From NCBI GenBank assembly GCA_950295325.1, contig OX485803.1:42485554-42549553 (forward strand): a stretch of DNA of 64,000 bases, written 5' to 3'. Made by a program: the position numbers and the translations under genes. Origin of the DNA: Polytrichum commune. Its lineage: Eukaryota; Streptophyta; Polytrichopsida; Polytrichales; Polytrichaceae. Each line of letters starts with the position of its first letter. Position 1 is the stretch's first letter. A model generated the notes under the pieces. It ran no database searches. It was not told the origin of the DNA and saw only the letters and a program-made list of their open reading frames with translations. Positions 5,380-26,635 of the stretch are shown here, piece after piece.

Positions 5380-7189
5380 AAAGTGTAGCCGTTAATGGCT
5401 ACCCTTAGTTGCATTTCAGATTCTTTTGTATACATGCTTCCTTCTTCATGTAGACACATACTTTCATAATTTTTTGTCCTTCAATAAGGTGGTCGTTAAC
5501 GGCCACTCTTATTGAAATTTCATATTCTTTTGCATATGTGGTTTTTTCCTTATGTATACTCTCACTTTCATAATTTTTTTACACTTGTCATATTTCTCAT
5601 TTTCTTTTAGTTTGCATATGTGATTTCTTCCATATGTATATATTCCTATTAATTTGTTTTTATCTTTCATATGGGTGATATTTTTGTGCTTTAGATATGG
5701 AAGTTGTACATCTTTCAAAAAATCAATTGGAATTGCAATTGCATGCATTTTTTAAGAAAGAAACTGTCAATACATCTTCCCGTCTTGAACGGTTGAGGTA
5801 TCAACCAAGGATAAAATCTAAACTCAATATTCCACTATGGCGAATGGTTTCATTGCATGTTGTTAGGTTTTTTGTTGCTTGTGGTTATATGGAGGGCAAT
5901 GGAGTTTTTTACGTGGCCTTGGAAAACAATGAGGGGAAAACAATAAATGTTACTAATAGTATCATTTAATCATGAAATAACAACTGGGTGCGGGCAAATG
6001 ATGCCTTTGAAAAAATATTGCAAATTGATGAGAACCTTAAAAAAATTTCTAGCAAAATGTTCATGATGTGGGACGGAAATCACCGTTTGCAAGCATAGTT
6101 GCCCATTATTAATCGAGATAATACACATGAACCTACTTGGCATTATGTTGTTGAAAGTATTATTTTGGACGTCAAGGGAGATATTGCAATCATGTTGGCA
6201 GCTTTACATGAAGTCAATTGGTAATTCCTTCATTCTTATCTTTTTATTTGTTCTTTTTTTATTTTTTATTTTTTATTTTTTTGGGCTTATCATTGGTTAT
6301 TTTATTTTCTCAGGAGGATCTAAAAATTCCATGTTTATATAAATCTCGTTCATGAGCTTTTCCGCATTCAAAGCATTGTTGGGTAACTACTTTCATATTT
6401 TTAAAAACTTGTCTCCAAAGAACATCCTACTGTTGTTGATGCCAAAAAAAAATCCAAACATAGAACTTGGTTCACTTTTATTGTTAAGGCTCTCAATGGA
6501 ACTCTATATCAGATTATTTTTTCTAAAGTATTAAATTCTCGTGCATTTTTTTTTCTTATATATATTTTTTGTTTTTTTATTTGGATTTTTATAACTATAT
6601 TTTTTATTGCATCTCATTTTGATTATGTGTGATTTATCATATTCTTATATATATTTTCTTTGGTGTAGCAAGAATTGGGAGATGCTACTGCTACTGCTCA
6701 AAGGAAATTTTATGAGAAATACCCTGATCCTACACATTGGACTTCAAGTGCAGTTGATAAATTTATTTCCTAAGTTGTTGAGAGGGTGAGATTGACTTTC
6801 CATTCGGAACTGAAGAAACAACTTCCCATTGCAGATCCTAGATATACTCCTATGTTCTTAGAGTAGATGAAGTCTCATTAAGAAATTGTGAGGCCAAACC
6901 GCCCACCCTTAAGCATCCTAATCCGGGTGAGGGAATGGATATCACATTCGTTTCGCATAGCTCCCTCTTACCCACTTCATTGGAAGTCATTACATTTCCC
7001 ATTAATTCGTACACACCAATTTATTCCATAATAAGATTACAAGTGTTAAGAAACACTCTTCTCTATCATGGCGCTATTCGCATGCTCAAATACAATCCCA
7101 CACAACTTAATCACCACTCTAATGAACTAGTATTTTCCCCTTCGTTTGAAACCAACACTATGCACTAACCTAAATGACTATGCTACAAT

Positions 7190-7570
7190 TTAGTCTAGTC
7201 TAAGTAAGCTCTACCTCGGCCTTAGCAACCACTACCCTCGGCCTTAGTAAGCCCTGGTCCCATATAATTAAGTTCTGCCCTTGGCCTAGTAGCTGCTGGC
7301 TCGGCCTTCGTAAGCCCCTGGTTCCATCTAATTAAGCTATGCCCTTAGCCTAGTAGCTGCTGGCTCCATCTGATTAAGCTCTGCCCCATGGCCTAGTAGC
7401 TGCTGGCTCCATCTAATTAAGTTCTGCCCTTGGCCTAGCCTTAGCAACCACTATCCTCGGCCTTCGTAAGCCCCTGGTTCCATCTAATTAAGCTCTGCCC
7501 CACGGCCTAGTAGCTGCTGGCTCCATCTAATTAAGTTATGCCCTTGGCCTTAGTAGCTCTTGGCCTTGGC
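7190..7570. repeat. Tandem repeat, CTAGTAGCTGCTGGCTCCAT family
   Basis: About six to eight imperfect units of roughly 50-60 bp combine the phrases GGCCTAGTAGCTGCTGG, CTCCATCTAATTAAG and CTCTGCCC. Units differ by small indels and by interposed CCTCGGCCTTAGTAAGCC. Confidence 0.75.
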
Positions 7571-7584
7571 CTTAGTAAGCCCCT

Positions 7585-7740
7585 ATCAAGTTACCCTTAA
7601 TCACTACTTTCCTAAGCTCCTCTAATCACTAATTTTCTAAGCTACCTTTAATCACTACTTTTCTAAGTTCCCTTTAATCACTACTTTTCTAAGTTCCCTC
7701 TAATCGCTAATTTTCTAAGCTCCCTCTAATCAACATTCTC
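7585..7740. repeat. Tandem repeat, CTCTAATCACTAATTTTCTAAG family
   Basis: About six units of 26-30 bp follow the pattern TAATCACTAMTTTTCTAAGY then CCCTY. It directly follows the GCTGCTGG repeat in the same insertion. Confidence 0.75.
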
Positions 7741-7757
7741 TACCACACTACCCCACT

Positions 7758-7832
7758 CTCACACACACACCCACACACACCACAAGAGAGAGAGAGAATG
7801 AGAGGAAGGAGGAAGGAAGGAGGGAGGGCACC
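7758..7832. repeat. AC, GA and GGAA microsatellites
   Basis: Short runs of CACACA, GAGAGAGA and GGAAGGAAGGAGGG lie side by side. Confidence 0.8.
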
Positions 7833-8240
7833 CAAACCACAACCTCCTTAGCCATCTCCTACTTAGTAGGACCTTATCCTATCCACTAAACCCTCACCCC
7901 CTAAACCAACAAGAACATATTCTAATTCAAACATTTAAATCAAAGGCACTTCCCCTTGCCTCATCAAGTACTACTCCTCTAATCAAAACACTTTCTAATT
8001 CCACTAAACCCCTACTTAACCAAACAAGATGGCTTAAGGCCTAAACATAAATCCACACCAAGCCTCACTCTTTTTATACTTTTGATTGTTTTAACAACAC
8101 TCCAAATGCAATCCTAAGTAATTCTAAACATAAAACAAATATGAGCACTCATTTTGGACTTATATAAACTCACGATGAGAATCATGAGATGACTCAAGAA
8201 AAACTTTGGATGTTAGCGACTTCGCCAATGGACACTTCCA

Positions 8241-8287
8241 TGAAGAACATGTGAGTTGAGAGGTGGAACAACTCACATGTTCTTCGT
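8241..8287. other. Perfect short hairpin, 17-bp stem
   Basis: GAAGAACATGTGAGTTG is followed after about ten bases by its exact reverse complement. It may be a terminal hairpin of a mobile element or a small-RNA-like foldback; the sequence does not decide. Confidence 0.5.
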
Positions 8288-9240
8288 TAGGCTCTCAAAT
8301 TTCCGAAACCAAAATTCAATGATATAGAGTTTTCTAAGTGGCTTCATAAAGCTATTTAGTGGGCTCAAGTGATAATGTTTTTTTCTTCTATTATTTTTGG
8401 TACATTAAATTTTTATCTTTGTTTTTTAATTATTTTTTCAATCATTGAACTCTTCTAATCTTTATTTTGTATTTGGCAGTTGGCTATTGAGACTGAGAAG
8501 CTCTTTGATGCTACTGTGGCTAATATGCATGTATCCATCAACTATCTTCCAGATAGTATGGATCCTCTGCCCATTATTTTCAATTATGTGGAGGCAATGC
8601 GCATATCATTGTGGGATACTGCATTTTTTCGTGAATTCGGTAGAGGTAAGGGATCTCACAAAAACCATAACATTGACAAGCAACTCAATTTCAATCCAGC
8701 CATGCGAAGGGTGTTTTATAGGTACTTCAAATATGTCTTATTTCTTGCTAAAGCCATTTTCAAATCTCTGATTTTTTTTTGCTAACTATTTGGATATCGA
8801 AAGTGAAGAATGCATGTTCACATAAGAGATTATGAAATCTTGGGATCCTATGCATTTTGAAAATGTGGGTGGTATTTGGATTGTCCTCTTAAAACACCTT
8901 CCACTTTTAATGTTGTCCTTCGAGATTTCATTCAACCCGTTCTCAAGAGTACAACTAAAGTTGCTCCAAGCATAACGGATGAGGATATAACCAAGATGCC
9001 AAAAAAAAATCTAAGCCCAAAAGATCAATCCTCCTAATTCATGATAGCGATGACGATGCTCCAGTTCAAAGCAATCTCAATAACCTTGCAGAGACTGAAC
9101 ATTTTTCTTCAAATTTAGAGGCAATGTTCTCTACTTCAAAGCGGCAGAAAACAACTCCTTCTCCTATCTTCGATATACCTCCTAAGCTTAGAGGTATTGT
9201 AGTTGATTTTTTTGGCCAAAGCAGCTTAGTTACTTAATTT

Positions 9241-11520
9241 TGGTTCAAATTAGTGCCAAAACTTACTTTGATTAGAGCATTAGTAAAGAAATGCTAGACC
9301 TAATCACTAAAACTCAAAAAGTAGGTTAGCCAAATTAAAAAGCAAAAATTAGGCTAATGACCTAAAGTTAGTGAGCAAAATTTGGACATGTGTCAAATGA
9401 CTAAAACCCTTAAAAACCTAGTTACGGGAGGACACATCCATTGGGTAGGCATTTGACGGGTAACTACCGAACCTACTCGAGAGGAAAAATGAGAGAGACG
9501 AAGGAGAGAGGGGGCCATTATCAAGTTTGAGTTTTTTTTTAGCGAAGGAGAGAGCATTATCGAGTTTTGGGTTTTCGAGCGGGATACAATAAATTCCTCT
9601 CGTGAAGAGAGCGAATGTTATATTTCTGTTGAAATAAAAATTATTATTATTACATTCTTCAAAGCTCGTTTGAATTGGGTATGAAGCCTTTCTTTGTTTT
9701 GCGCGCAAGTGTCTAACAATTTTTTGTAAGGGTTCATTACATTACTGAGCACCTATCAGCTCATCTGTTACTATTAATAACAGTGCATAGGCTGCAGATG
9801 AGTTTTTCATGTCTACAGTAATAATATCCCATAATAGAAACGGGAATAATTTGTGGTCCCCCATAACGCAACGTTGAAGTTGAATAGTGTTAAGTTTGCA
9901 ATTGTGATCAGGGAGATTTTTGGGCATAACCGGTTGACATCCTAGTGTTTGCAAGTCCAACCAGTTTGCAAGCCTTCGATGCGGCGATGTAAATCCAAAG
10001 TCAACTGTTAAGAAAGATACACAACATCAGTTTAATGCACAAGAGAGTGCACAGGGTTAGAGATTCTGCTCGCATGCGGGTTCATGCCCATCTTAGCTAT
10101 GGTGCATGGTTCTTCATCAAATTGTGAGAGCAACGAGGAGGAATGCAAGAATGTCATATTTCGCGTCGGGGAGCTATTGTCGACTACTTACCCTGGGAGA
10201 ATCTGATGTTTTTTTCCACAACATTAAGCGTGACTGCAAGTCGACCTTTGGAATCGCAACTTCGACGAAACGAAAGAATTTCTCTTCTCAAGCACGATGA
10301 AGAAAAGATGGGATTGATTTTGCAAGGCAAGAGAAGACAAATATGCAGTGGAGATTAACAACTGCGCATTGATCTGGTCAAGCTTTTGAAGCTTCAGATT
10401 CATCTACAAGGCGGAGGAGCTAAGCCTTCGGCGCCGAAACGAAGAGGAAGCTTGGAAGCTGGAAGGTTATCCCATAACTCTTGGGAAGACCAAGCAGTGC
10501 AGTAATAAAAACCTTTGGACGAAGAGGCTAGTCAAGTACACTTGTCTACAGAAGTCCAACCCGAGAGCTCATCTTCCTGGAATTGAATCACAAAACCTAC
10601 AAGCTGCAAAATATAGGTGTTAATTTTTTGCACATCATAATACTTTGCATCATTTAAACACTACCATGGGCATCCAACATTGCACAATTATCACATAAAT
10701 TCAATGCTGTAATTAAAGGAAACTGTGAAAGTTGTATAAATTAATTTTTAGCTGTGAAGGCAATAAGAAAAATTACAAAAACAAAAACATCAAAATTAAG
10801 GCTTATTCCGAAGAGAATTCCAAATCTAATTAATGAAATAATAAGGAACCAAAAGATAAATGAATTAATTGAATTATGAATTTGATTAAGTAATATGAAA
10901 GAACCGATTGCTATAAAATAAATATATAAGAAAAACTAATGTATTATGGCCTAAACATATTATCGAAGAATAATGGATCCGAAACCGCCAACTTAGTTTG
11001 AGGTAAGGACCATTAAATATACTGCCACACTAAATCTCACAGTAAATAAATGAGTGAAAACAACTCGTAGGGTTGTTATTACTGTATTTCATGATCCATT
11101 AAATTCACAAATTAATCAATGAGAGTTTATGGATCTAGTCAGAGTGCCCTTGGCTCTGATGACATGTGGTTACTGGATACTCAAAAAGACTATTGTTGAG
11201 TCGTGACTCCTTGCATTGCGAAAAAACCCAAATGTCTAAACACATGGTTACTATTGGACAATGGTTGTGAGGGAGAGGCTGAGCAAATGCATGTACGGAC
11301 TTGAGAGCCCCTGAACCACAAATATTGTAATTTAACCCTAAAATAACTCTAAAAAGTTAAATTTACCTTGGGTTTGTGTGTACAAATCACATACATAAAC
11401 TATTATGAACTATCAATTCACTTAAGAGTGACATCTAGATGAATAACCTGACACTCATTTAGTCTTCCCTTGGGTGTTTCATATAAAATTGAACCCAAGT
11501 AAAAATCCTATCTACATGTA
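9241..11520. mobile_element. Unclassified insertion between the two halves of the relic gene
   Basis: About 2.3 kb with no match to the intact methyltransferase-like gene lies between its linker region (to 9,240) and its catalytic-domain half (from 11,523). A minus-strand frame at about 9,742-10,010 (SPHRRLANWLDLQTLGC and onward) looks mildly coding and could be a captured gene fragment, but I do not recognise it. The rest, 10,640-11,500, is AT-rich with no motif I can name. Confidence 0.35.
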
Positions 11521-13104
11521 TAATGGATATTTTGCCTCTTTTACCTGCAAATCATACATCTTCGGATTTAATCTTGAATGATTCTTTTGTAAGGATTATC
11601 GAGTATAAGAAGCAAACATGTACATTTCGTGCACCATACGACAACGTTGTGGTTTTTGTATCAAAGGTGAGTTCATTTTATTTTACAATTTTTAATTTTT
11701 TTCATGTTTTATAAAGTTTTACTTATATTTCATCACATTATTTTATTATTTTCTTTGAATTGTCATCTTCATTCATGAATTGCGATATCTATATTTTATC
11801 TTCTGTAGGTTGGTGAAGGCAAGCAATTTTTTTTTATGGCCAATTGTAAAAGAAACCTGTTGTGGACCTCATCATTGCGGATTACCCAGACGGTCTTCGG
11901 GTTCTAGGTGTCTCAGATCCGCCATCTCAAATTTTCCCTTAGAATGCTAACATTGCAAGTGTTCTCAACATATTGATGGCGTTTGTTCTTATCTATCTTC
12001 ATGATGATGGAGCATTCATTTTGTTTTATCCTGACAGTTCTGCGGTAAAGAGAGAAGTGACAAAATTCTTCAAAAACTATAAGTTCAAGATCAAGGATGA
12101 GTGGACTATCATAAATTGCTTGCACTTGGCAAATCCTATGAATCCGTCCAAAAATGTAAGTAGCAATTATGAAATTTCATTTTAATTGCTTTATATTTGA
12201 ATTTGTTTTTATATGATGTGTATTTTTTATTTTTTATTTTATTTTGACTTTCAAATTTTGAAGTTCAAGGTTTTGTTATTGGTTTGATCATTTTCGTTTC
12301 CCGTTACGAGCCAACCTCAAGAACTTCTGATCATCATGTATCCTTCAACTTCAGAGGTCGATTTAGCCATATATGACGTTCTCTTCAACTCTATTAGTAC
12401 GAAAATTCAATTATGTAAATCAAGAGATGGCAAACCATGGAGGGGTGCAAAGGAGAAGTTTGAAGTTCTAATGAAGTTATTTGTTCATGATTTGAGTCAT
12501 GTAGGCGATATTGTGGCAGACATGACTGCTTCTACAAGTATTGTATTTATAGTATGCAATTATTAGTTTATATGTTTTTTAATTTATACTTCAATGTTCA
12601 TGTTTTCCTAATTAATATTGTGCTTCATCCAGGTTCTTCTATTAGAGCGGCTCATTCATCCAATCGTCATATTCTAGCATTAAAAAGTGATGCCGAACTC
12701 TTTGATGAGGTACTAAACCCTCTTAAAACACCTACAACTGATACCTCATGCGATGGTATGGACTTTGATGATGATACTCCAATAGAAGATGCCACACTAT
12801 TTAACTTATGTGAGTAAGTTATTTCCTTGTTTTCTTCTCGACAACTTCAATTGTAAATTTTAGATTTTTTATTTTAATTTGTTCTTACATACTCTAATAC
12901 ATGGTTTGATGTTTGCAGTTGGATGAATCCATGGCGGATACAAACCTCGTCATTTTATCGGCACCGTGGGTTATTGAGAAGCCCCTCTCTTAGTCCTCAT
13001 AGCCTCTCTGTGTATGATGAGGCTTTAGTTGAAGCTTATGCTAATGCTTCATTTACTTCATCTTCAATTTCACCACAGATAGATCACTCCATTGTCAAGT
13101 TGAA
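11521..13104 (+). pseudogene. C-terminal catalytic half of the relic methyltransferase-like gene
   Basis: This continues the homology broken at 9,240. Exons read as follows. Residues IEYKKQTCTFRAPYDNVVVFVSK end at a GTGAGT donor near 11,668. From 11,810 comes the motif IV region VVDLIIADYPDGL (parent VDLVFLQFPDGF). Then DDGAFILFYPDSSAVK runs to a GTAAGT donor near 12,156. At 12,420-12,535 come GKPWRGAKEKFEVLMKLF and VADMTAST. After an intron, SSIRAAHSSNRHILALKSD (12,634-12,700) completes the motif I region. The last exon from 12,920 carries LLRSPSLSPHSLSVYDEA. One frameshift lies in a T run near 11,827. The sequence is cut at about 13,105 by another element's terminal repeat. Confidence 0.8.
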
Positions 13105-13240
13105 GGGGAGTGCTATCTTGTGAGCAGTAATTTGTGAGCGGTGAAGAAAACAAAATATTTGGTAATAGGACCCCCTAGTATCCTATAACCGTGGCCTAAA
13201 GAAATAATTTTTTAGGGTTCAATAATAAGAAGATTAGGGA
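13105..13240 (-). mobile_element. Terminal repeat of a second, inverted element (methyltransferase-side end)
   Basis: Starting with GGGGAGTGCTATCTTGTGAG, this segment is the inverted image of 26,467-26,635. Shared words include GGTAATAGG, TATCCTATAACCGTGG and TTTAGGGTT. Because it matches the inner sequence specific to the methyltransferase side of the complete element, I read it as the 3' end of another copy pointing the opposite way, not as the left end of the complete element. Confidence 0.65.
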
Positions 13241-13766
13241 GGACAAACAATATGAATGCTAGATTGTGAGTAGTGAGCAACGAAAAAGACCAATATGTAC
13301 ATGACTCAGGGTTGCTAGTATGTGAGCATGCGAGCATGAGCATGTGAGCCTTCATTTTTTTCCCGGTTATGGTTTGTAAATCCGTTGGGGGCCTATGACT
13401 GTGGAATTATATGTAAGGGTCTATAGTTCAAATGAACAAAAAATGAGAATGTTGCTATAACAATTTTTTACTAAAAATGAATTAATATACATTCAAATGT
13501 TCAGATAATAATAATGTAATTGGATACAATGTGTAAGCAAAGTCATGTTGAAAACAAGTGTAGCATGTTAGGATGTCTCACTATAATATACATCAATGTA
13601 AAATTTGAACACATCATAACACCATCATAAGGGTGACATTTACAAAGTCCAAAACACAAAGAACAACAAAAGTGGATTGTAGATATAAATCAGGTTGTAG
13701 ATATAAATTATTGAAGTTCTTGGAAATCAAAAATCAAAAATCAAAAATCAAATCATGAATACAAAT

Positions 13767-13872: not shown

Positions 13873-14239
13873 TCAAGTTGACACCACGTGCGGACAAAGT
13901 TTGCTACCCCTATATTACATGCCATATATAATTTTAAAATTTATGATATTTTTTCTACATATACATAACCATTTATAGTATCTTTTGTATAATTTTTTGA
14001 AATTTTTAGTCATATTTATGTTTTTTAGTAATTTTTTAGTTCAATTCTGTGTCATTATAGTTAGAAACGGTATGTTTTATGAAAAAACAAATCATCAAAT
14101 TTAGTTACCACTTTTGACTATGTCATAGGTACTGTGTATATCTACTCATGAAAAAAAAATTGATAAAATTTTGACCCATTTTGGTGGTGCAACTTACCAA
14201 AAGAAGATTTTTTTTGGTCGCACGTGGTGTTCAACTTGA
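13873..14239. mobile_element. MITE, 367 bp, TCAAGTTGACACCACGTGCG termini
   Basis: Left end TCAAGTTGACACCACGTGCG is mirrored at the right end (CGCACGTGGTGTTCAACTTGA region, 14,218-14,239) with one indel over about 23 bp. The interior is AT-rich and non-coding. It sits between the inverted relic and the left end of the complete element. No convincing target duplication is visible. Confidence 0.6.
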
Positions 14240-14241
14240 GA

Positions 14242-14335
14242 GGGAAGCTATCTTATGAGCGATGAGCAGTGAGCGGTGAGCGATGAGCAGTAACACATGA
14301 GCAATGAGCAGTAACATATGAGCAATGATTCCAAA
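14242..14335 (+). repeat. Left terminal inverted repeat with TGAGCRR heptamers
   Basis: After the terminal GGGAAGCTATCTTA, the heptamer TGAGCGA/TGAGCAG/TGAGCGG is repeated about five times without a gap, then spaced by AACACA and AACATA. Subterminal repeats of this sort are typical transposase-binding sites. Confidence 0.7.
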
Positions 14336-14569
14336 CTTAGTAAAGACACACGGGTTTAGGGTACACAACCAAAATTTTGACAAATTAATTGCATATTTTC
14401 AATTGTAAATTGCCAATATTTTAAATGAAGCACAAGTGAAAGGGCCCTATTTCCATGGATCATTTAAAACACTTTCAATTCATTGTTGATTTTTATTATA
14501 ATAATCCAAACCAATACATGTCATTTATTGACATCCTTATACATGTAGTTACAACCAACACTTGCACAA

Positions 14570-14690
14570 CTACTCACATTCCACAACACCAGCAAGTTCA
14601 AGTAGGTGCATAACCTCATTATACGTACATGTAGGTGCCATAATTGTGAGCCACTCAAACTGCTCACGGGTTGAATTAAGGCCCAGAATC
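14570..14690 (-). pseudogene. Duplicated tail of the transposase gene
   Basis: Minus-strand APTYTYNEVMHLLELAGVVE then a stop repeats the last residues of the transposase at 15,125-15,200 (APTYTYNEVMRLLELAGIVE). The homology continues into the 3' flank (14,445-14,569 matches 15,012-15,124). It is therefore a local duplication of the gene end, separated from the original by about 320 bp. Confidence 0.75.
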
Positions 14691-14734
14691 TACAAATGAA
14701 AGGAAATTAGATATTAGAAATAGTCAATATGTAG

Positions 14735-14950
14735 GTAACTACTAGGTTTTGAGACATCCGCCTGTGGATGCAAGTTGTGTAAGAGACTGGTATTAGGTCT
14801 GTATCAACCCGGGTTCGAATCCGGTTGGTTACATTGACTGGTGCTATCCCAAATTGAGCTAGTGATAAAGTAGGAATAATCTATAGGCGGATACCAAGAA
14901 GACGTTACTACGCGGATGTACGTAGAATCTTCTCAATTATTTTTTATTTT
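14735..14950 (+). mobile_element. Possible tRNA-derived SINE
   Basis: GGTTCGAATCC at 14,812-14,822 is a perfect RNA polymerase III B-box-like sequence, and the stretch ends in a T-rich tail near 14,938. The A box is weak (GTGGATGCAAGT near 14,764). It lies exactly between the two copies of the transposase tail, so it is probably inserted. A chance B box cannot be excluded. Confidence 0.3.
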
Positions 14951-15124
14951 TAGAAACTTGTTATTATTTATCCATGTCAATCAATCAAACCGCTCACGGT
15001 TGGGTCGTACTGAATCATTTGAAATACTTCCAGCCCATTGCTGATTTTTATTATAAAAATCCAAACCAAAACATGTCATATTTTGACATTCAAATATATG
15101 GTACTTAATAGACCATTTGCAATA

Positions 15125-18100
15125 CTATTCACACTCTACGATACCAGCAAGTTCAAGTAGTCGCATGACCTCGTTATAGGTATATGTAGGTGCATGAATG
15201 AACTTGTCACTCTCGTAATCCACCTTGCACAAAAATCTAAACACATAATAAAGATGTTTACAATACACCCATTTTCCTTTCTTTCCCAATGCATGAGAGG
15301 ACATTTTCGTGAAATCCGGGCATGTGCAATGCGGGATGTCGCCAATTGTGACATGGTAGGTGATATCCTGCTTGGAGACAATGTTGATTATCACTCCAAA
15401 GCCCGGATATGGAATGGCAGTGACCCCAACCACATAGTAACCCTCCATGAGTCCGGCGCTCTCCCATTTGTTTTTGTGATCCGCTAGCGGTGCTGTTGGA
15501 TTACGACGCACTGTCTTCCCAAACCTGAATGTAGGGTGGGCGTCCGGGTTTGGTGGCATAGAAAAATGCGAGCGAGGGATGGGAAGAGTTGCGATTGTTG
15601 AAAGCCTACGACGAGGGGACAATGCCTCCCTCTGCTATAGTTGAAATCCAGCATCTTCAAGTGCCAAAACCTCCTCTCGCGATAGATTGGTACCTATCTT
15701 CACCGGCCACGTGTTGGGTACTATAGGCCAGTCCAACACATATTTCTTCTTACTGCCACTTACACAACGTTTGATGTCGTCAGGGCAAAACCAAAATTCA
15801 TACTCCACATTGTTGGGAGAGCGAAATTCCTTCCTGAGCCCTTTGTATGTTGGAGCAGGTGTGCCATGTTTCCCAGTCCCGACTTTGGCATTGCACATAG
15901 TCCCTGTGATGGCCTTCAGTGCCCAACATCGTTTGGCTGAATTGGGTGGTAATCTTGCAATGTGCCACTTGGAAGCAAGACAATTAGTCTCTAACACGGA
16001 TGTAGTATGTGCCACAATATGAATTGTAGAACTCAACGATTCTTCTATGCTTTGACGAGTTGCTCGGGTATTGGGACGAGAAATAGAATAGTTCACTTTG
16101 TCGGGTCGATGAGAGTCACAATCAGCACCCGGTGGTAGGTTGAGTTTGCGTTTGGTGGAACCAAAGAGCTCTGACCCTTCCAATGCACAATCTCTAGTGT
16201 TGACGTCTTCTGCCCCTGGATAAGACTTCATGGCATCGGCCAACATTTTTGGATCTCCACACCTTGCAGCCGCTTTGAGTTTCAAGGATGCCGAATCAGG
16301 ACCTTTACCATCAGACCCCCCTTTCAACCATGTCCGGTAATTTGCAATTTGCATGAAAGCACGGATAATGTCGTCCACTGTAGCTTCATATAAACAAGTC
16401 ATCTTGTTGCCGGACTGTTGGAGCCATTTGTTGTGTACAGTCTCTGCAAGGTTGCATGTTGGCATTTCCGCACGCTCTTCTATTGTCATATCCTATGAAC
16501 AACACACAAATACAAGGATAAGACAAACATAAGATAGATTATATATTTAGGTTTGGGTTGTTCAACCCAAAATGGCTGCCACGTTTGGGTCGTTCGACCC
16601 AAACTGCATACAAGGTTTGGGTCGAACGACCCAAACTATTTGTTGTTTGTTGTGTACAGTCTCTGCAAGGTTGCATTTTGGCATTCCCGTACGCTCTTCT
16701 ATTGTCATATCCTATGAACAATACAGAAAGATAAAGATAAGAAAAACATAAGATATATTACATTGAATAATGAAGTTTGATATGTACTTACAAGTAGCAT
16801 ATGGCCACCCCATTGTCTGTAACGAAAGTGCCAAAATCCCAACCACTCTGAAAGGCCAAGGATGCCTTCCTCGGAGGCAACTCCAGATGACAACCACCAA
16901 GAACGAATCACATGGTACTTGGTCTCAGCGTCGTCCATTGTTTTCGCGTCTTTGTAATCCTTGCATATTTGTTTGTGTTGACATTGCAAGGATGGTTTGA
17001 TATACTTTTGGGTCACCTTATCCAAGCTTGCGGACCAATGGAAAAGACATGTACGCTCACGTGCAACCATGGGTAGACTTGGATCACCATCCCCGTAAAT
17101 CGCCCTCACCGCATTCCAATTAGATTGAGCACTATCAGCCATAAACCCTTTGAAGTTTACGTATGGTACACCATTTTCTGCCATGACAGCATTCAAATTT
17201 TCCCAAAAGAGAATTTGTGCTGCACCATCTTCAGATTGCATGTCACAACACGCAATAGTCAGCACTTTACAATATCGACTGTCGTACACATGGCAAGCCA
17301 TGGTCGTCCAGTCCTTCAAACGTTTGACATGGTCAAACATAATCCATGAATTCTCCATATCCCCACCGACTTGCATCCTCTTCACAAGCTCCACACCACT
17401 ACCTGGAAGGTCTACAGACATCTTGAAAACAAACACTTTATCCTTTGACTGTCCTGGGAACCGACTACCATGGACGAATTTGAAAGCAGAGTGGTCTTTG
17501 AGCGCCATAATACTATCCATAGTTCCCATTCCACTACGCAAAAAACGCTTTGATCCAGATACAAAGTTACGACAATTTGGAGACGCAAGAGTGCTGAATT
17601 TGTCCATAACGACCTCTAGGGATGAACCAACCAAGTGATGGCCTTCGACATTTGCGGGAGATTTGAGAAGGTAATCGGCCAAGAATTGTTTGCTCGCCGC
17701 CATAACTATGGCTGAATTTTTTGCTGTGGGTGTTTTCAATACTTCATTTGCAACGCATTGGTATGCCATGTCCAATGATTCACGGCATGTGCCATTGGCC
17801 ACAGGGTGATCATGTACACCAAAATGAATGCAAGCCCTGGACATTCCAACGGATGTGGAGTGAATGTATATGATTCGAGCATTACACAAAGCAATGCACA
17901 CATGTGTGGACTGACATACCTTACACTCGACAGTGGACTTAGTAGGGGGAACAACACCCACAGCAAATGGGATAGGAGTTGAACCGGCCCATTCAGTGTT
18001 GTTCCGGAGGCCCCCATTGCGATTCATGTAATCACAGTAGTCATTATGACATTGGAGATAACCAGCACAAGTAGAGCGCCGGAAGGACAGTCCAAAGTCA

Positions 18101-18927
18101 TTTTGGATATTCGTGGTTTTGGTGGTGCACCAAGGATGACCGTCGCACATCTTGTCCATGCCGTCCATTGAGTGACCATACGTACTTGGAGCTTTGAATG
18201 CCACAGGAGGCAAAAGAAACAAAACATCACCATTAAAAGAAGATGGTAAGTACTTGACTCCACGAACATCTATACTGTCAAAATCAATGGATGCAAGATC
18301 GGACTTTGATCTTTTTCTTGACTTTGTCAACTTCAAGGCATCAACCATAGTCAACCCTGTAGATGAAGGTGAAGGGTGTAGTGGAGGACGTTGAGAAGGT
18401 GAGATTTGGGGAACCACCTTGTTGTACATAAGACCGCAAGGGGATTTGGCTACATGTATAGGAAGTTGGGAAGGAGTAGAATGAACACTTCTAAATGGAA
18501 ATGGCGATGTGTTTGAAAGATCAACAGATGCACAAATGTCATCTTCTGAATCTGATAGCACAAACACACTATCATCAAGGGGTTCCACCTTAACATGTGC
18601 GATAGAGGGAATTTGAACTGTGGATGTACCGGATTCGTTTGTCAAAATGACAGTTGAAGCTTGCATCTGAGACTCAGAAAGTCCTATCACCCTAAATGAA
18701 CCAGGTCCTAAGATCCACATAAAACCAACATCAGTTCTATTTTGTGGAACCAAAATCGTTTCATACACCTCTCCATCTGCAGAGTACATCTCATGCTCTA
18801 AATACATGGTTCCTATCTGGAGGTTGAATCTCAAACTAAGTAAATCCTCTGAAACACTCACATGACCATCATCTTGGAGTGGCAAGATGAAGGGAACAAA
18901 AGATCCATGAGCTCTAATGGTAGCCAT
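15125..18927 (-). CDS. MULE-like DDE transposase with SWIM zinc finger, one in-frame stop
   Basis: Two inferred exons, 18927-16792 and 16492-15125, joined in phase 0 (CTT|GTAAGT donor, TTCATAG acceptor), give about 1,166 residues. Residues 112-130 hold VKVEP then VFVLSDSEDD; a basic stretch KSRKRSKS is at 202-209. A cysteine cluster around 287-298 (CAGYLQCHNDYC) resembles a transposon-type zinc finger. The catalytic-like region spans about 500-710: candidate acidic residues in HVYDSRY (549), GFMADSAQSNWNAV (598) and LSEWLGFWHFRYRQWGGH, plus the CLFHW block typical of MULE transposases. Exon 2 ends with a SWIM motif, CTCPDF then CKHLYYV (15,240-15,340). A TAG at 15,635-15,637 interrupts exon 2 just before the SWIM part; the reading frame is otherwise open. 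The family fit is good, but the exact catalytic triad is inferred. Confidence 0.75.
16551..16636. repeat. Three GTTTGGGTCG palindromes inside the transposase intron
   Basis: Near-perfect palindromes lie at 16,551-16,571, 16,583-16,604 and 16,615-16,636. Each is GTTTGGGTCG, two bases, CGACCCAAAC; the first has T/A changes. They belong to the same family as the array at 22,031-22,335. Confidence 0.85.
16637..16715 (-). repeat. Duplicated 3' splice site and exon start inside the transposase intron
   Basis: This stretch repeats 16,430-16,506, including the TTCATAG acceptor and the first codons of exon 2 (D-MTIEER). The intron therefore carries a second, upstream acceptor that would open the same reading frame before running into the palindromes. 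It is either a dead duplication or a source of alternative splicing. Confidence 0.7.
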
Positions 18928-19449
18928 AGAAAATCAAAAGAACATATGAACAACACATCACAAAAATATGGGGTGAATGTTGGTTTTGTATAGAGTTGTA
19001 TGAGGAAATGAATGGAAATGAAAACGTGTGATACAATAATGGATGGAGATGAAAGCGTGTGATACATAACATCTAATAATACAGAAGTGGACATAACACA
19101 ATAATAGTCAGAGAATATTTACGAACAAAATATACAGAAAATGGCGTCAAATACTAAAAGTATTGGTAGAAAACAAAAATATATATGTGTGGACTGACGT
19201 AGATGTAGAAAGAATTAAAATTGGTTGGAAAAATAAATTACTGCTCATTATGAATAGAACAAAGTAGGTGTCAGAAAATTTTGGCGGATATAACAAAAAT
19301 AAACACATAATGACAAACGCGTCGAAATATCTCGCTCATTGAACGCCAATTACAACATGTGATCGTAATATACGCCGGATTTTGTGAGATAGATACATTG
19401 GAAGAATAAATGATAGTACCTGATAGAAAACATATTATGGACACCAACG
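18928..19449. promoter_or_regulatory. Divergent promoter region between transposase and methyltransferase-like gene
   Basis: The two inferred start codons face away from each other 522 bp apart, so this segment must contain both promoters. It is AT-rich with TATA-like words (ATATATATG near 19,178 on the plus strand). No palindromic array unit lies here; the arrays start downstream of exon 1 of the plus-strand gene. Confidence 0.5.
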
Positions 19450-19854
19450 ATGGTGGACGATGTAGAGAGAACACCTGTGAGGCCGAAGAGAAGACGTAGG
19501 AAAACTTTGTATTTTACTTCCGAGAAAAAGAGGTTCAGACTGAGTGTGGGAAAGAAGAATGCAAATAAGAAAGGGAAAAGAAACTTGTTGAGTACGGTAG
19601 AAGAAACTGTGAAGACACTGGATTTTGATGCGATGAAGGATGATGAAGGTGCAAAGAACAAAGAAGATATAGATGATCGTATATCAGAGTCCGAATTAAA
19701 GACGGGTTCAAAAAAGATGACAAACAAAAAGGTAAGTCAGTTCAACGTTCACATAATTTGATAGTGCATAAGTTGTAAGTTAGGACGGAGAACCTTGTAC
19801 GTTCACTCACATATCATGTAGTAGCAATTTATAGAGGCTATAAATTGGAGAGGA

Positions 19855-21190
19855 AAAAACCTATACGTTAATGCACATGGTATATAACAGAAATTTAGGA
19901 AGGCTAGAAGTCAGGAGGAGAACGTTCAGGGTTTATAAGAGCAACTTAGAAGGCGAGAAGTTTGGAAGTAAAACCCTATACGTTAACGCACAAGGTTTAT
20001 AAGAGCAACTTAGAGAGGCCAAAAGTTGGGAGCTAAAACCCTGTGCGTTAACGCAGAGGATTTGTAATAGCAACTTAGGAAGGCAAAAAGTTGGGAGGAG
20101 AAACCCTGTGCGTTAACGCACAGGGTTTGTAAGAGCAACTTAGGAGGCAAAAAATTGGCAGGAGAAACCCTGTGCGTTAACGCACAGGGTTTGCAAGAGC
20201 AAATTAGGAGGCAAAAAATTGGGAGGAGAAACCCTGTGCGTTAACGCACAGGGTTTGCAAGAGTAACTTAGGAAGCAAAAAGTTGGGAGGAGAAACCCTG
20301 TGCGTTAACGCACAGGGTTTGCAAGAACAACTTAGGAGGCAAAAAGTTGGGAAGAGAAACCCTGTGCGTTAACGGACAGGGTTTGCAAGAGCAACTTAGG
20401 AGGCAAAAAGTTGGGAGGAAAAACCCTGTGCGTTAACGGACAGAGTTTGCAAGAGCAACTTAGGAGGCAAAAAGTTGGGAGGAGAAACCCTGTGCGTTAA
20501 CACACAGGGTTTGCAAGAACAACTTAGGAGGCAAAAAGTTGGGAAGAGAAACCCTGTGCGTTAACGGACAGGGTTTGCAAGAGCAACTTAGGAGGCAAAA
20601 AGTTGGGAGGAGAAACCCTGTGCGTTAACGGACAGGGTTTGCAAGAGCAACTTAGGAGGCAAAAAGTTGGGAGGAGAAACCCTGTGCGTTAACGCACAGG
20701 GTTTGCAAGAACAACTTAGGAGGCAAAAAGTTGGGAGGAGAAACCCTGTGCGTTAACGGACAGGGTTTGCAAGAGCAACTTAGGAGGCAAAAACTTGGGA
20801 GGAGAAACCCTGTGCGTTAACGCACAGGGTTTGCAAGAACAACTTAGGAGGCAAAAAGTTGGGAGGAGAAACCCTGTGCGTTAACGGACAGGGTTTGCAA
20901 GAGCAACTTAGGAGGCAAAAACTTGGGAGGAGAAACCCTGTGCGTCAACGCACAGGGTTTGCAAGAGCAACTTAGGATGCAAAAAGTTGGGAGGAGAAAC
21001 CCTGTGCGTTAACGCACAGGGTTTGCAAGAGCAACTTAGGAGGCAAAAACTTGGGAGGAGAAACCCTGTGCGTTAACGCACAGGGTTTGGAAGAGCAACT
21101 TAGGAGGCAAAAACTTGGGAGGAGAAACCCTGTGCGTTAACGCACAGGGTTTGCAAGAGCAACTTAGGAAGGCCAAAAGTTGGGAGGTAA
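19855..21190. repeat. Tandem array of 64-bp units, each with a GTTAAC-centred palindrome
   Basis: Seventeen units start every 64 bp exactly from 20,101 to 21,125. Two more diverged units start at 19,971 and 20,036, and weaker ones lie before them. Each unit contains CCTGTGCGTTAACGCACAGG within a longer palindrome flanked by AAACC and GGTTT, then a non-palindromic 36-bp spacer ending AAAAAGTTGGGAGGAG. Many units carry CGGACAGG in place of CGCACAGG, and GAACAACTT alternates with GAGCAACTT in the middle. This suggests 128-bp dimers amplified together. The array lies in the 2.9-kb first intron of the methyltransferase-like gene. Confidence 0.95.
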
Positions 21191-21641
21191 AACGACTAGG
21201 AGAGCCTAAAAGTAAACAAATATCTATTGTATGAATTTAAATCGATCTTCAGAGCGTAGGAACAAAAAACCATTCAAAACGGGGTTAGAATGCAAGAAAT
21301 GAGAAATATGTCTACTCAAGTATTCATGCAATATGTTATAGGAGCTAGAAAATGACACAAAATAGCATAATTTTTTTTTTGCCCCGAAACCCAAAATCTA
21401 CGAGGTGGCCCAAAACAAGAAAATAGATAGAAGAATGAGAAAAGAAAATGATTTCAAACCAAAACAAAATATAAGAAGATTTTGTAGCTACGGAGATTTA
21501 GATAATATAGCATATTTTATTTTATTTTTTTGGACCCCATTAGCATTTTTTCCAGATTTTACAAGTTTTGGCAAATCTACCAATTCCAGACAAAAGTTCT
21601 TCAAATTCAAAAAAAAAAGTTTTTAGCAAATTCATGTCTCG

Positions 21642-21812
21642 GCCCTGTGCGATTAACGCACAGGTCTTATGCGCTAACGCACAGTGGCCTCAAAGTTGCC
21701 AGCGCAGACCCTGTGCGTTAACGCACAGGGTCTACTTGCCTAGCTAGAGGCTTCACAAAGTTGGGCAAGTAGACCCTGTGCGTTAACGCACAGGGTCTGC
21801 GCTGGCAACTTT
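21642..21812. repeat. Further GTTAAC palindromes forming a 46-bp perfect inverted repeat
   Basis: Positions 21,695-21,740 and 21,764-21,809 are exact inverted copies (46 bp each) around a 23-bp loop. Each arm itself contains the CCTGTGCGTTAACGCACAGG palindrome flanked by AGAC and GTCT. Two degenerate copies of the palindrome precede them (21,643-21,664 and near 21,668-21,682). The DNA can therefore fold either as one long hairpin or as two short cruciforms. Confidence 0.9.
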
Positions 21813-22030
21813 CTAGCGGCTATGCGGGGCACGAAGAGCCACGCTAAATATGGCCGCAAGGACGAGTAGTATAAATTGCCACACCTTCAAAGCATTCAGT
21901 CTTTTTTCTCTCATCTATCGAACCGGAGCTCGTCGCTGCAAGCTCTCTCATCTACAGGTGCAGTACAAGGTTTGTTTGTACTTTCGTGATGACTGGGTAA
22001 TTGCGCATAATTAGGCGTAAATTGCGGGCA

Positions 22031-22335
22031 GTTTGGGTCGGTCGACCCAAACTGTCCGCCTGGTTTGGGTCGACCGACCCAAACTTTTCGCCTAGTTTGG
22101 GTCGAGCGACCCAAACTGTCCGCCTAATTTGGGTCGACCGACCCAAACTGTCCGTCTAGTTTGGGTCGCTCTGTAGACCTGTAGACGGATAGTTTGGGTC
22201 GAGCGACCCAAACTAGGGTGTACAGAGCGATCCAAACTGTGAGCATGGTTTGGGTCGTTCGACCCAAACTGGTTGTAGGTGGTTTGGGTCGCTCGATCGA
22301 AACCGCGTGGACAGTTTGGGTCGTTCGACCCAAAC
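22031..22335. repeat. Array of GTTTGGGTCG/CGACCCAAAC palindromes
   Basis: About nine units spaced 26-55 bp apart, most near 32-34, for example at 22,031, 22,063, 22,096, 22,193, 22,249 and 22,314. Each is GTTTGGGTCG, a variable dinucleotide, then CGACCCAAAC. Some units keep only one half (near 22,160 and 22,230) and one has a changed half (22,281). One more GTTAAC palindrome follows at 22,374-22,401. The array ends about 210 bp before exon 2 of the methyltransferase-like gene. Confidence 0.9.
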
Positions 22336-25300
22336 CTCGCGCCCAACATTTGTAGACCTGTAATTGGACACACAGACCCTGTGCGTTAACGCACAGGGTC
22401 TGCCCTTGTAGTTTTGGGGTGAACGGCCACCCTTATCGTACAATATTTAAAGGTGCAAATGGTAGTGTCTAGAATAATATTTGTTATTTTTCCCTGTGTT
22501 TGTGGTATTCTGTTGTTATTGTTGTTGCTATTGCTGTTGTTTTTGTAATGTTATTGCTAATGTGTTTCTACTGGTTTTGAAATATTTATGAAACTTATTT
22601 CATTTGTTTTAGGACCAATCAATGGATTTGGAGAGAACGACTGTTATTTCTACTGGTGATGATTCTACAATGCATTCAACTTAAGATCGTCCATTTCAAC
22701 AAGTTCATGTTCATCAGGATATATCGTCAAATCTTCATAATAAGAAAAAGAAAAAAATAAATGAATCTCTCGATGATTTTGACTCGGATGAAGATAATGA
22801 TGGTGACAATAAAACCTATCAACAGAAAGTCTGGGAGCTTACGGACAAGCGAAAGGTTAATTCCACTTCAACAATTTCCTCAATCCGTGCTGGACCGAAA
22901 TCTCGTTTGCGTGTACCCTTATGTCGCATGGTTCCAATGCCTATTGTGCGTCCTGCTTTGAAAGGCGACATCACTAAATTGGAGGCTGACTTTTTCAATG
23001 GTTATCGTGATGGTGACCGTGTGTTTTATCTATCGGCTACCGACTTTAAGGGAAATTTTCAATTTGTGGATGACGAGGTTCGTGCATCTTGGAGCCCAAA
23101 TTGGGCTCAAGCTAATGCGGTGTTTGAAACTGAATTAGATGCCGATCCTTCATTTACATCATACAAGAACAAGATGTTATTCATATGGGATGGTAATCAC
23201 AGATTTTTTGCTTGGAAAAGTTATATTGACCGCTTGCATACCGAAGATTACGAGCGTCATGTCTTTGTGGATTCCATCATTTTGGCGCCCGAGCTTGATG
23301 ACATTCCAAATTTGTTGACTGCTATGCACGACATCAACAAGTAATGTTTTTACTTCTTTATTTTCATTTATTTCTGGTTTGTATTTTGTTATTTGAATTA
23401 TATCATCCTTAATCCATGAATTCAATATTTTTTCAGGTCAACAGAAAACTCTCACGTTTCTACCAATTTGGTGCATACTTTGTATCGGATGCAAAGTATT
23501 GGCACCATGCCTTTGACTTCTTTTAAAAAAACAACTGGATCCTAGAAGTTATAAGCGATGTGAGGAGAAGTCCGTTGAAACTTGGTATTCTTTGACGCGG
23601 CCAATTTTTCTTGATTATATGTACAGTGTAAGTTTTTCTAGCATTTCCTACTATGTTTTTAATGTTTATTTATCTTTCATTTACATCACATCTATATGTA
23701 CTTATTAATTTTGGATTTTGTTTGATTTTTCAGCAAGAACTTGCCGAGGCTAGCGATATTGCTCTCAACCTTTACAATGAAACCCATCCTCTTGAACGAA
23801 CTTCAGAAGGAGTTTCTAAAGCAATGTCCGCAGCTGTCAACAAAAAACGTGCAATGTTGTCTTCTAGTTTTACAAAACAACTAGCAATTGCTGACATCAA
23901 CCTTATCCCTGCTTTTCTTGAAGAAGTTAAGCACCATTGGGGTTCATTTTCGGTGCCTGAAATGTTACAAGAGAAACTTCATCGTGTTGCTGTTAGTAAT
24001 GTGGATCCAAATGTCAAAGTCGGATGGCTCAAACTTTGGAATGGCAATAGATTTGACAAAGATGCATTGCATTTCCTGAAATCACCCCTCTCTGATTCTG
24101 CACTTGATGATTGGTTATCAAAGGCTACATATTGGGCACAGTTAGAGAAAAAAGCTATTGAAGAGCTTCAAAGTATTCTTTCATCTCCTCTTCAATTGCC
24201 TGCAGATGTGCCTACTCTCTCTGAATATATCCAAACCTGGAAGTTTGCGGCTTTCAATTCAATATTCTATCGTGAATTCAAAAGCGGAAAAGTAAAAAAA
24301 CACAACGTTTGGGATGAGCAACCGAATATTGATCTTGCTATGAAGCGTGTTCTATACAGGTACAACTTATTCTTTACTATTTCTTGATATTTTTTCATTA
24401 CATTTTACTTTTCATTCAATATTTGGCTCATAATATTTTTGTGTGTAGGTATTTCCGATATGTTTTGATTCCGCACAAATGCGTTATAGGAGAACCTCAT
24501 TTTTTTCCAAATTGGCGTGACACTGGTGCGGAAGACTCATGCATGTTCACTACTGAGATTTGTTTGGATTAGTCGCTCCCACACTATGAGGATTGTGGTT
24601 GGTATCTTGATTGTCCTAAGGATGCATGTCCGTCAAGTGAGAAGACAATCCGTCAGATAAATGATGCCAAAAATGTAGATCCTCGTGATACTGCAATTTT
24701 GCAAGCACAAATTGTGCAGCTTAAACTTAGAGAGCCAGAACCAAAAGAGACAAAACGTCGTAAGAGAAAACATGTTCCTGAAACCAAAATACAAGGTCAA
24801 TCGGAAATTTCACAACATGAAGAATTGCTTGTTCTTTCCAATGATTTGGATAAGAATACACTTGGAGGCGAAAGTTTAAAATCCGGGTGCGATGTATTGG
24901 AATTTCATTACTCCAGCACCTATGACGCTATTCATCGTGCGCCAACGAATGTTTTGAGAAAAGAGTTATTCATACTGAAAAACTTTCTTACGCTCTCTTT
25001 TGCTCGATCTACTGCTGTCAAGAACAAGTCTGAAGGGGTTGAAGTAGGCCCTCCTGAGTGGATCCAATGGCGGGCATTTCTTGAAAATGTAAGTAATCTT
25101 CATTTTGTATTTTCTGTAATGTTCTTACTTTCATTTGGATTTTATTTTGTGTCTTATATTGTGATATGTTGTGGTATTTCAGTTCAAAGACAATCGCGAA
25201 TTTCATGTCATGGGAAGTCCGACTCCATTTGCCGTTGACTTGGTTTTTCTGCAATTTCCGGACGGTTTTGACTTCAACCTCTCCAATAGACCTGCTGAAA

Positions 25301-26466
25301 TTCCTCTTTGGAATAAATATGACAAGAACTGGATGGTTGCAACAATGTCCTTGTGCAAGTCCATCTTGTCTGATGATGGCGTCCTCATAGTATTTTCTGC
25401 TATCGATATGCAAACCAAGAAGGTTTTGAATTCAACCTTACACAACGGCAACATGAAAGTTCTTAGGACTTTTATTTGCCTCAATTCGTACATGGTGTTC
25501 AAGGATCCGGAGTCTCCAACCTACACCGTAAGTATAACACATCACAATTGTTTCTATTTAATTATTTTGGTGTTATTTGCATTGTATATAATTTTAACAC
25601 AATTTACATTTTTTTGTAGACTCCGGCATTTATGGCTCATGTCTTGGTAAGGGATTTTACTACCAAAAAATCCACAAGACAACCAAACTCCACTTTTTTC
25701 GGCACTGGATTGAAAAGCAAAAACTTGCTTTTCAATTTTGTGGATGAAAAAAACACGCTTCTTCAAAAATCGGGAAGACCTTGGAGGGGGCTATATCAAA
25801 AATCGCCGCGTTTTTTTCAAGATCTTATTGAATTGTTTACACCATCGAATGGACGCGTTGTTGATTTGACATGTTCCACTGGAGCTTCTATCCTAGCAAC
25901 ACGCGCATGTGGCAGACATCTTCTTGCATTTGAGGGTGATAATGACATGTTTGAGCATATATTGAAACCGCTTTTGGAAAAGGTTTTCAAATAGGGGTCA
26001 TCTAAGGAGAATATACAAGATCTCACAAAAGAAGATGATGACCTCTCGGATGAGGAGATGCTTGAATTTGAGTGTGAGTAAGTTTTGATACAATAAATTT
26101 TTATTCAATTCATTCGTTTCATTCAATTCATTGGTTCATTTTTATTTCTTCACATTATTTACATGTTCCATCGATTTGATTTCAGGAATACGATTGGAAA
26201 GAGGACATGTCTCCCGTTTTGGGCACATAGACAATTCCTACGAAGTCCAAGTCGTAGCCCGCGTCTCCCATCATATGCCGAGAATGTTGCAATTGCAATG
26301 TTGAATCTCGAAGATTCGGATCCAAATGAAGAATCTTGCTATAGTTCCAAAATCAATTCGCAATGCAAAGGTGCTCGAATATATATAGATGACGAGGCAA
26401 AAGATAGTTTCATGTCTAGTGCTACTACTTATGAATAAATTTTTGGACTTCATGTTGTTTATCCTT

Positions 26467-26635
26467 CTCAACCCTCTTATTACTAAACCCTAAAATCATC
26501 ATTTTTAAGGCCACAATTCCACGGTTATAGGATATTGGTGGCCCTATTACCAAAATTTTCATCTTCCTCACTGCTCATAAGTTACCGCTCATCGCTCACC
26601 GCTCATTGCTCACCGCTCATAAGATAGCACTCCCC
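26467..26635 (-). repeat. Right terminal inverted repeat
   Basis: The outer part (26,581-26,635) mirrors the left end at 14,242 with the heptamer block. The inner part (26,467-26,575, with TTACTAAACCC and CACGGTTATAGG) is found again inverted at 13,105-13,240. It begins only about 30 bp after the methyltransferase-like stop codon. Confidence 0.75.

Follow-up and report, generated by a model that had tools for sequence, protein, structure and literature searches.

A Mutator-superfamily transposon of the moss Polytrichum commune with a divergent ParB-like/methyltransferase-like accessory gene and internal palindrome arrays

Introduction

Active evasion of silencing by transposons is best known from VANDAL elements of Arabidopsis and their VANC proteins. 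A 64,000-nt stretch of the Polytrichum commune genome (contig OX485803.1, hereafter the window) raises the question of whether a transposon gene with DNA methyltransferase ancestry would serve its element by modifying DNA or by binding it. The original prediction for this locus described terminal repeats around a SWIM-containing, MULE-like transposase gene and a divergent ParB/methyltransferase-like gene, called the latter epigenetic-modifier-like, and drew an analogy with VANDAL elements.

Results

The window holds one decayed member of a Mutator-superfamily transposon family in which a transposase gene (T) and an accessory gene (B) are divergently arranged; the element occupies positions 14240-26635 and is one copy of a family of ~12-kb DNA transposons. 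For comparison, 20 other full-length copies were picked by paired exact termini, giving 21 with the window copy. Terminal repeats enclosing both genes were borne out, at 62 nt and 90% complementarity (14247-14308 versus 26567-26628) instead of the ∼45 of 48 matches noted earlier. Comparison with the 20 other copies placed the ends 7 nt further out, at 14240 and 26635; these outer 7 nt are identical among 21/21 copies, and 3 of them agree between the left and right termini of the window element. Thus defined, the left terminal inverted repeat, on the transposase side, lies at 14240-14308 (GAGGGAAGCTATCTTATGAGCG, followed by TGAGC-type short repeats), and the right one, on the B side, at 26567-26635 (ending in CGCTCATAAGATAGCACTCCCC). 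A left end at 13112 was ruled out because all 21 copies end GAGGGAA-GCTATC; the B-side terminus of another copy, inverted and degraded, is found at 13105-13256 (plus strand).

The terminal 15-mer has 313 exact matches (153+160) in the 408-Mb genome and none for a reversed control, and 54 of the first 100 matches listed can be grouped into 27 pairs that face inward within 30 kb, with no outward pair. Therefore, the terminal repeats are not due to chance. Target duplications, which the original prediction had proposed to define, are 10 bp long with ≤1 mismatch in 18/21 copies, within the Mutator range of 8-11 bp; they are absent from C1_66663430, C1_39380770 and the window copy (8/10 mismatches), and a search for a displaced duplication of the latter gave nothing convincing. 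Three copies resemble one another at 99.4-99.7% in T as well as in B, and both genes are open in one of the 21. In the window copy, T is interrupted by one in-frame stop and B by stops and a frameshift. Scans of a viral collection gave no match, and a prokaryote genome collection gave one contaminant contig matching the transposase alone.

T appears to be a Mutator-type transposase gene; it lies on the minus strand. Exon 1 (16792-18927) encodes an N-terminal domain, a zinc-binding region, two catalytic aspartates (MFDHVKR and FMADSAQ) and a CxxH motif. Exon 2 (15125-16492) contains a probable SWIM zinc finger, for which the Pfam match is sub-threshold (E 0.016), and the segment CNLAETVHNKW, which by its pattern is proposed to hold the catalytic glutamate; the in-frame stop of the window copy lies in this exon at 15635-15637. 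Residues D532 and D598 are invariant in 24 sequences, and 49 relatives were found. No relevant PDB sequence was returned when the transposase alignment served as the query. Intron 1 (16493-16791) is enlarged: part of the exon-2 start is duplicated there (16646-16711), around an array of palindromes described below. With C1_63979910 as the reference copy, dN/dS of T is 0.16-0.68, and the gene is under purifying selection.

B runs on the plus strand from 22622 to approximately 26437 in seven GT-AG exons (22622-23340, 23437-23627, 23734-24359, 24449-25088, 25183-25527, 25620-26077 and 26186-26437), so that both predicted genes are present on opposite strands. A putative TATA box (TATAAAT, a pattern match alone) at 21870-21876, plus strand, would place the start of the 5′ leader just downstream. 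Over 20 comparisons with the same reference copy, dN/dS of B is 0.12-0.45; for the window copy it is 0.129 (115.5 synonymous and 62.5 nonsynonymous changes). B is thus under purifying selection; its window copy is decayed.

Exon 1 of B encodes a ParB-like DGNHR box, which is intact in 17/20 copies covering it and is also found in two relatives, P0001 (from the moss Ceratodon) and P0002, and in an old relic in the window. No Pfam profile matched a ParB domain in B; the label ParB-like rests on the DGNHR motif and on analogy with an Ectocarpus protein. Exons 5-6 encode an N6/N4 methyltransferase-like domain. The window protein alone gives E 0.21 against N6/N4 methyltransferases, P0001 passes the Pfam N6_N4_Mtase cutoff (30.4 versus 26.7 bits), P0002 falls under it (24.1 bits), and a profile of B, P0001 and P0002 matches DpnA (1.4e-5) and CcrM (8.7e-4). 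As judged by sequence, the C-terminal domain descends from beta-class N6/N4 DNA methyltransferases, and its ancestry is clear. Apart from methyltransferase-like models, Pfam scans of these three proteins gave no strong match, and a structure model of P0001 (with P0002) was not usable (pLDDT 32).

Active beta-class amino methyltransferases have the catalytic motif [DNS]PP[YFW]. This motif is absent from every B copy and relative read: motif IV, which is DPPY in CcrM, is LQFPDG in 19 of the 20 copies covering it, LQFLDG in the remaining one, and DTPF, CDTPDN and ADYPDG in three other relatives. The glycine-rich SAM motif FxGxG is altered in B as well. A reading of B as an epigenetic modifier in the sense of an enzyme is not supported by these motifs, yet an altered DPPY does not prove that activity was lost.

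Both genes, divergently arranged, were found in 20/20 of the other full-length copies fetched, two of which have large deletions in B. Two unrelated neighbours are thereby ruled out, and in these copies, chosen by paired exact termini, the genes are neither rarely together nor bounded by unrelated termini. Relics that the original prediction placed at 0.7-3.3 kb do exist, as a transposase relic at 700-2509 on the minus strand (57-80% protein identity in pieces, without intron palindromes) and, at 2880-2942 on the plus strand, a fragment of 21 residues resembling B, and their orientations agree with an ancestral pairing. They differ from that description in that the long B-type relic lies at 5757-12533 on the plus strand (blocks 5757-6878, 8186-8887 and 11859-12533; 23-29% identity). 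The pieces need not belong to one element.

Two palindromes occur in arrays inside the element. The first, m1 (CCCTGTGCGTTAACGCACAGGG), forms a tandem array of 64-bp period with 19 sites (≤3 mismatches) at 19974-21149, where cores are flanked in the pattern AAGTTG-N10-core-N10-CAACTT; two more m1 sites (21709-21795) precede the putative B TATA box, and one further site lies at 22377-22398. The second, m2 (GTTTGGGTCGNNCGACCCAAAC), occurs as three sites with a 32-bp period within the T intron (16551-16636) and as eight sites at 22031-22335, in the inferred 5′ leader of B. With ≤3 mismatches allowed, all 22 m1 and 11 m2 sites of the window fall within the element, and shuffles expect 0, which rules out chance. 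The old relics of the window contain no m1- or m2-like dyads. The VANDAL analogy fits this anatomy well, in that palindromes occupy the T intron and the stretch separating the two start codons.

All 277 m1 sites (≤2 mismatches) in the 21 copies fall between the T and B start codons, and arrays range from 6 to 48 sites per copy. The genome has 444 exact m1 sites and the reversed control none. Among 50 distinct sites listed, the fetched copies account for 32, two other spans between facing termini for 7, and positions 9-13 kb inward of a single terminus for 11, so that m1 is seen solely at the T/B family among the sites listed. By comparison, m2 has 9,231 genomic sites; it is present in the T intron and upstream of B in 17/21 copies and absent from two. 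The m2-less subfamily has the same m1 core consensus as the other copies, with spacers 55-60% identical to theirs, and the 11 m2 sites of the window have arms 94.5% and spacers 38% alike; such core-versus-spacer contrasts are inflated by selection of the sites by core match. The retained m1 core beside diverged spacers rules out recent tandem copying as the sole origin.

Upstream of a distant B gene (L050), neither palindrome was found in the ∼3.9 kb read. Together with the two copies without m2, this means that a B gene need not have these palindromes beside it. Substitutions in the m1 core are mostly one-sided (438 single-side versus 7 complementary double changes), which speaks against any restoring of symmetry. 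CpG depletion was considered as a possible sign of hypomethylation and set aside, because values of the arrays (0.58-1.07) overlap those of other element parts (0.35-1.12) and cannot be separated from them.

Among 100 m2 sites listed, 77 are in three clusters of a second element family (L051-L053), around one of its genes, and 23 in T/B family copies or a TIR-bounded span. The protein of the second family had no Pfam match, a best NCBIfam E of 0.17, and no similarity to B in a profile comparison. By these comparisons, m2 is common to two element families with no detectable protein similarity.

Discussion

We suggest that B would mainly bind DNA and not modify it, that it would bind the palindromes of its own element, with m1 as the likely cognate site, and that this binding would keep the element from silencing in the manner of VANC, by a protein apparently unrelated to VANC. 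The arrays, with periods of 32 and 64 bp (approximately three and six helical turns), would be docking arrays adjoining both promoters, and m2 may be an extra, acquired site, read by a factor that also serves the second family. This account as a whole is tentative, and we put its probability at about 0.45. A DNA-binding, VANC-like regulator is favoured over a modifier because no copy or relative read retains DPPY.

Arrays adjoining promoters fit simple autoregulation equally well. B might bind the palindromes of the shared promoter and the T intron so as to limit expression of both genes, like a phage or plasmid repressor. This is possible but rather doubtful: palindromes suit dimeric repressors, and the placement of m1 upstream of the putative TATA box and of m2 in the T intron and ahead of the start codon of B would be as expected, but 6-48 m1 sites exceed the needs of a simple operator, and tandem arrays with fast length change are the VANC pattern.

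An improbable role for B is that of a working N6-adenine or N4-cytosine methyltransferase that marks its own element to stay active, as proposed for algal ParB-methyltransferase proteins; the clear ancestry of the domain speaks for it, and we downgraded it for the changed catalytic motif and the altered FxGxG. Equally improbable is that the palindromes bind a host factor unrelated to B, such as an insulator protein or a transcription factor. The abundance of m2 and its presence in two families would suit this, but m1 is restricted to the T/B family among the sites listed, and none of the 100 m2 sites listed points to a host gene. Least probable is a transposition accessory acting in synapsis, excision choice or target choice with the arrays as assembly sites: B is linked to the transposase in every copy read, and several Mutator elements have gained extra reading frames (PMC6446971), but the palindromes lie mid-element and in an intron, away from termini that bear a different repeat (TGAGC).

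A broader extension of the DNA-binding, VANC-like reading is more speculative and on balance unlikely. ParB/methyltransferase-derived proteins might form a second, VANC-independent class of sequence-specific plant transposon regulators with a pseudoenzyme DNA-binding domain, and palindromes might be tradable, with m1 owned by the T/B family, m2 borrowed by all but its m2-less subfamily, and the protein of the second family exploited in trans. If the element does evade silencing through an apparently unrelated protein, its open copy and its private and shared palindromes would allow one to ask whether anti-silencing arose repeatedly and whether elements borrow one another's sites. Moreover, the family cautions against reading DNA modification from a methyltransferase domain in a eukaryotic transposon.

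Compared with known systems, the C-terminal domain of B aligns to both motif IV and the SAM-binding motif of CcrM and to the SAM-binding part of DpnA; unlike both, it lacks DPPY and FxGxG and is joined to a ParB-like box and a long central region. Other Mutator elements that carry an additional gene have terminal repeats, target duplications of 8-11 bp and, in many, a SWIM finger (PMC6446971); here, by contrast, B and its relatives strongly match just methyltransferase-like Pfam models.

In VANDAL21, the VANC motifs are repeated in tandem within introns and upstream regions, and copies differ by their gain and loss (PMC5735166). Both systems belong to the Mutator superfamily and have an extra protein gene and copy-variable tandem motif arrays in introns and upstream noncoding DNA. 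Here, however, the accessory is ParB/methyltransferase-like, and the motifs are perfect palindromes of 22-28 bp, one of them common to another family, whereas VANC motifs are directional and of 9 bp.

A literature search for ParB with methyltransferase in eukaryotic transposons, with subscription papers mostly outside it, returned just PMC12477816 as relevant. That paper describes Sola1-1_Ec32, a giant transposon (21.5 kb) of the brown alga Ectocarpus, in which a ParB and N4/N6 methyltransferase protein of ∼1,100 aa, predicted to make 4mC or 6mA, is encoded opposite a Sola transposase. By that description, the likeness is a ParB-like and methyltransferase protein on the strand opposite the transposase, and the differences are a Mutator-type, 12-kb moss element, a non-canonical catalytic motif and palindrome arrays. 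Accessory genes of the ParB-methyltransferase type are thus known from algal transposons, and what is new here is their occurrence in a Mutator-type element, in a moss, with a changed motif and with private and shared palindromes.

Element boundaries and the copy sample

The transposon with terminal repeats originally predicted at 14242-26635 was recovered, with its left end now placed at 14240. Its terminal repeats (14247-14308 and 26567-26628) are 62 nt long and 90% complementary. In the 408-Mb genome (64 contigs), the terminal 15-mer GCTATCTTATGAGCG occurs exactly 153 times in forward and 160 times in reverse orientation, against zero occurrences of its reversed control. Among the first 100 listed of these 313 matches, there were 27 inward-facing pairs within 30 kb, spanning 9.2-27.4 kb (21 of the 27 at 11-13 kb), and no outward-facing pair within the same distance; 46 of the 100 termini had no exact partner within 30 kb. 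The window copy and 20 of the other 26 inward-facing pairs made up our set of 21 copies; three of the six pairs outside it exceed 16 kb. All 21 copies end in GAGGGAA-GCTATC and GATAGC-ACTCCCC, and thus the window element extends from 14240 to 26635. A 10-bp target duplication with at most one mismatch was present in 18 of the 21 and absent from the window copy, C1_66663430 and C1_39380770. The left flank of the window copy carries a MITE-like insert, and a displaced target duplication was looked for and not found.

This insert, with inverted ends TCAAGTTGACACCACGTGCG, occupies 13876-14236 and abuts the element, and a string resembling its ends, CATTGTCAAGTTGA, also lies next to 13105. Near the left end of the element, 14573-14644 duplicates 24 residues of the transposase C-terminus at 83% identity. 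At C1:433664-483268, a 49.6-kb span between family termini with several clusters of the palindromes m1 and m2 probably represents nested copies. On the minus strand of the window, an open F-box/Kelch-repeat gene at 50349-51554 is probably a host gene. A contig binned with a cyanobacterial genome (CADCWO010000080.1), an apparent eukaryotic contaminant, also encodes the family's transposase at 49% identity.

Both genes are under selection

In the copies read, the transposase gene T, with a putative SWIM finger, is paired with the divergent accessory gene B. With stop- or gap-containing codons left out, dN/dS in 20 copies, each against C1_63979910, was 0.16-0.68 for T and 0.12-0.45 for B, ratios that should be raised because many partner copies are decayed; the value of 0.68 comes from a close relative, C1_2151850, with 15 synonymous changes. 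Both genes are open in one of the 21 copies and T is open at full length in four, and B is largely deleted in two of the 20 fetched copies (C1_39380770 and C2_13600220). B shows two N-terminal haplotypes, about 88% alike, joined to a C-terminal part with 97-99% similarity, a pattern that probably reflects exchange of modules.

B is methyltransferase-like with a changed catalytic motif

B is split into seven exons bounded by GT-AG splice sites, and its product in the open copy C1_63979910 is 1,076 residues long. In two database searches the only relatives to appear were P0001 (32% identity) and P0002, which come from the moss Ceratodon purpureus and are the basis for reading the window as probably moss DNA. 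In Pfam, P0001 scored above the N6_N4_Mtase threshold and P0002 below it, the window protein by itself gave E 0.21, and a three-sequence B profile matched DpnA (1.4e-5) and CcrM (8.7e-4) in the PDB. Of the ParB/methyltransferase-like character first assigned to B, the methyltransferase part is supported by these matches; the ParB label is suggested by a DGNHR box in exon 1, and domain scans gave no profile support for it.

Twenty copies span the site with which the DPPY motif of CcrM aligns: 19 have LQFPDG and one has LQFLDG. C2_13600220 lacks this region of B. The equivalent is DTPF in P0001, CDTPDN in P0002 and ADYPDG in an old B-type relic elsewhere in the window. The SAM motif FFGVGTT of CcrM aligns with TCSTGAS. 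Defining methyltransferase residues are changed in a protein still under constraint.

A genome scan for B-type genes with a Ceratodon protein query gave 2,964 first-look candidates, 40 of which were scored, with 94 matches. The genome has at least one additional B gene, in the fetched stretch L050, about 41% identical to B of this family and with no m1 or m2 within the upstream stretch read.

Palindromes lie in noncoding parts of the element

The palindromes m1 (CCCTGTGCGTTAACGCACAGGG) and m2 (GTTTGGGTCGNNCGACCCAAAC) have 22 and 11 sites in the window (≤3 mismatches), all within the element, where none were expected. Tandem m1 sites repeat every 64 bp, framed as AAGTTG-N10-core-N10-CAACTT; for m2 the period is mostly 32 bp. 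These spacings are near six and three helical turns. Across the 21 copies (≤2 mismatches), every one of the 277 m1 sites is in the region separating the start codons of T and B, as are 125 of the 207 m2 sites; another 81 m2 sites are in the transposase intron and the last one is in a copy that lacks the start of B. Two copies, C1_9396420 and C1_43865120, have m1 and no m2. The other 19 carry m2 in the intron, 17 of them also between the start codons, the exceptions being C1_39380770 (without the 5' part of B) and C2_13600220. Three subfamilies share the same m1 core consensus, and spacer identity is 95% between two of them and 55-60% between these and the m2-less third, a core-versus-spacer contrast that is inflated because sites were picked by their cores.

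m2 also marks a second element family

In the whole genome, exact m1 sites number 444 (control 0). Of 50 distinct sites listed, 32 fall within fetched copies and seven in two facing-terminus spans (C1:433664-483268 and 18371441-18398819); the remaining 11, at C1:4875629-4879255, lie 9-13 kb inward from a lone terminus. When its central dinucleotide is left free, m2 has 9,231 exact sites (control 0), and array periods among those listed are 32, about 35, 57, 64 or 78 bp. Among 100 listed, 10 belong to copy C1_2151850, 13 to the 49.6-kb m1-bearing span and 77 to three clusters, 66 of the 77 within fetched stretches L051-L053 (C1:616300-626299, 1181000-1190900 and 2115900-2125800).

No match to T or B was found in L051-L053. 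Each of the three clusters contains a version of one related gene, which encodes about 1,250 aa in three coding blocks, and the versions share 75-86% protein identity with that of L051. Here m2 occupies both gaps between coding blocks and the upstream region, and none of 85 sites (≤2 mismatches) falls inside a block; the L051 block ends were placed by hand on the basis of open frames and with knowledge of where the palindromes lie, so 'intron' there is a reading and not a test, and one L051 open frame continues through the first m2 copy. Stretches like LIDGQHS and VFNVFGGS in the protein are reminiscent of ParB/DGQHR and methyltransferase motifs; profile scans gave no supporting ParB or methyltransferase match, and hhalign found no similarity to B.

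A possible anti-silencing system

Among the papers listed in our literature searches, we saw no report of ParB-methyltransferase accessory genes in Mutator elements or land plants. Because the arrangement matches that of Arabidopsis VANDAL elements and their anti-silencing protein VANC, we propose that B may bind m1 as its cognate site, and that B so bound would shield or activate the element, acting without modifying DNA. The sequences show the element's anatomy, the gene pairing in the copies read, the selection, the altered motif and the placement of the palindromes; binding, the cognate site and the anti-silencing effect are inferred. The main rival is autoregulation, in which B would hold down expression of both itself and T. 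The anti-silencing proposal is by analogy with VANDAL elements (PMC5735166, PMC10398659): both systems combine a selected accessory protein with motif arrays in intron and upstream regions, the length of which varies between copies.
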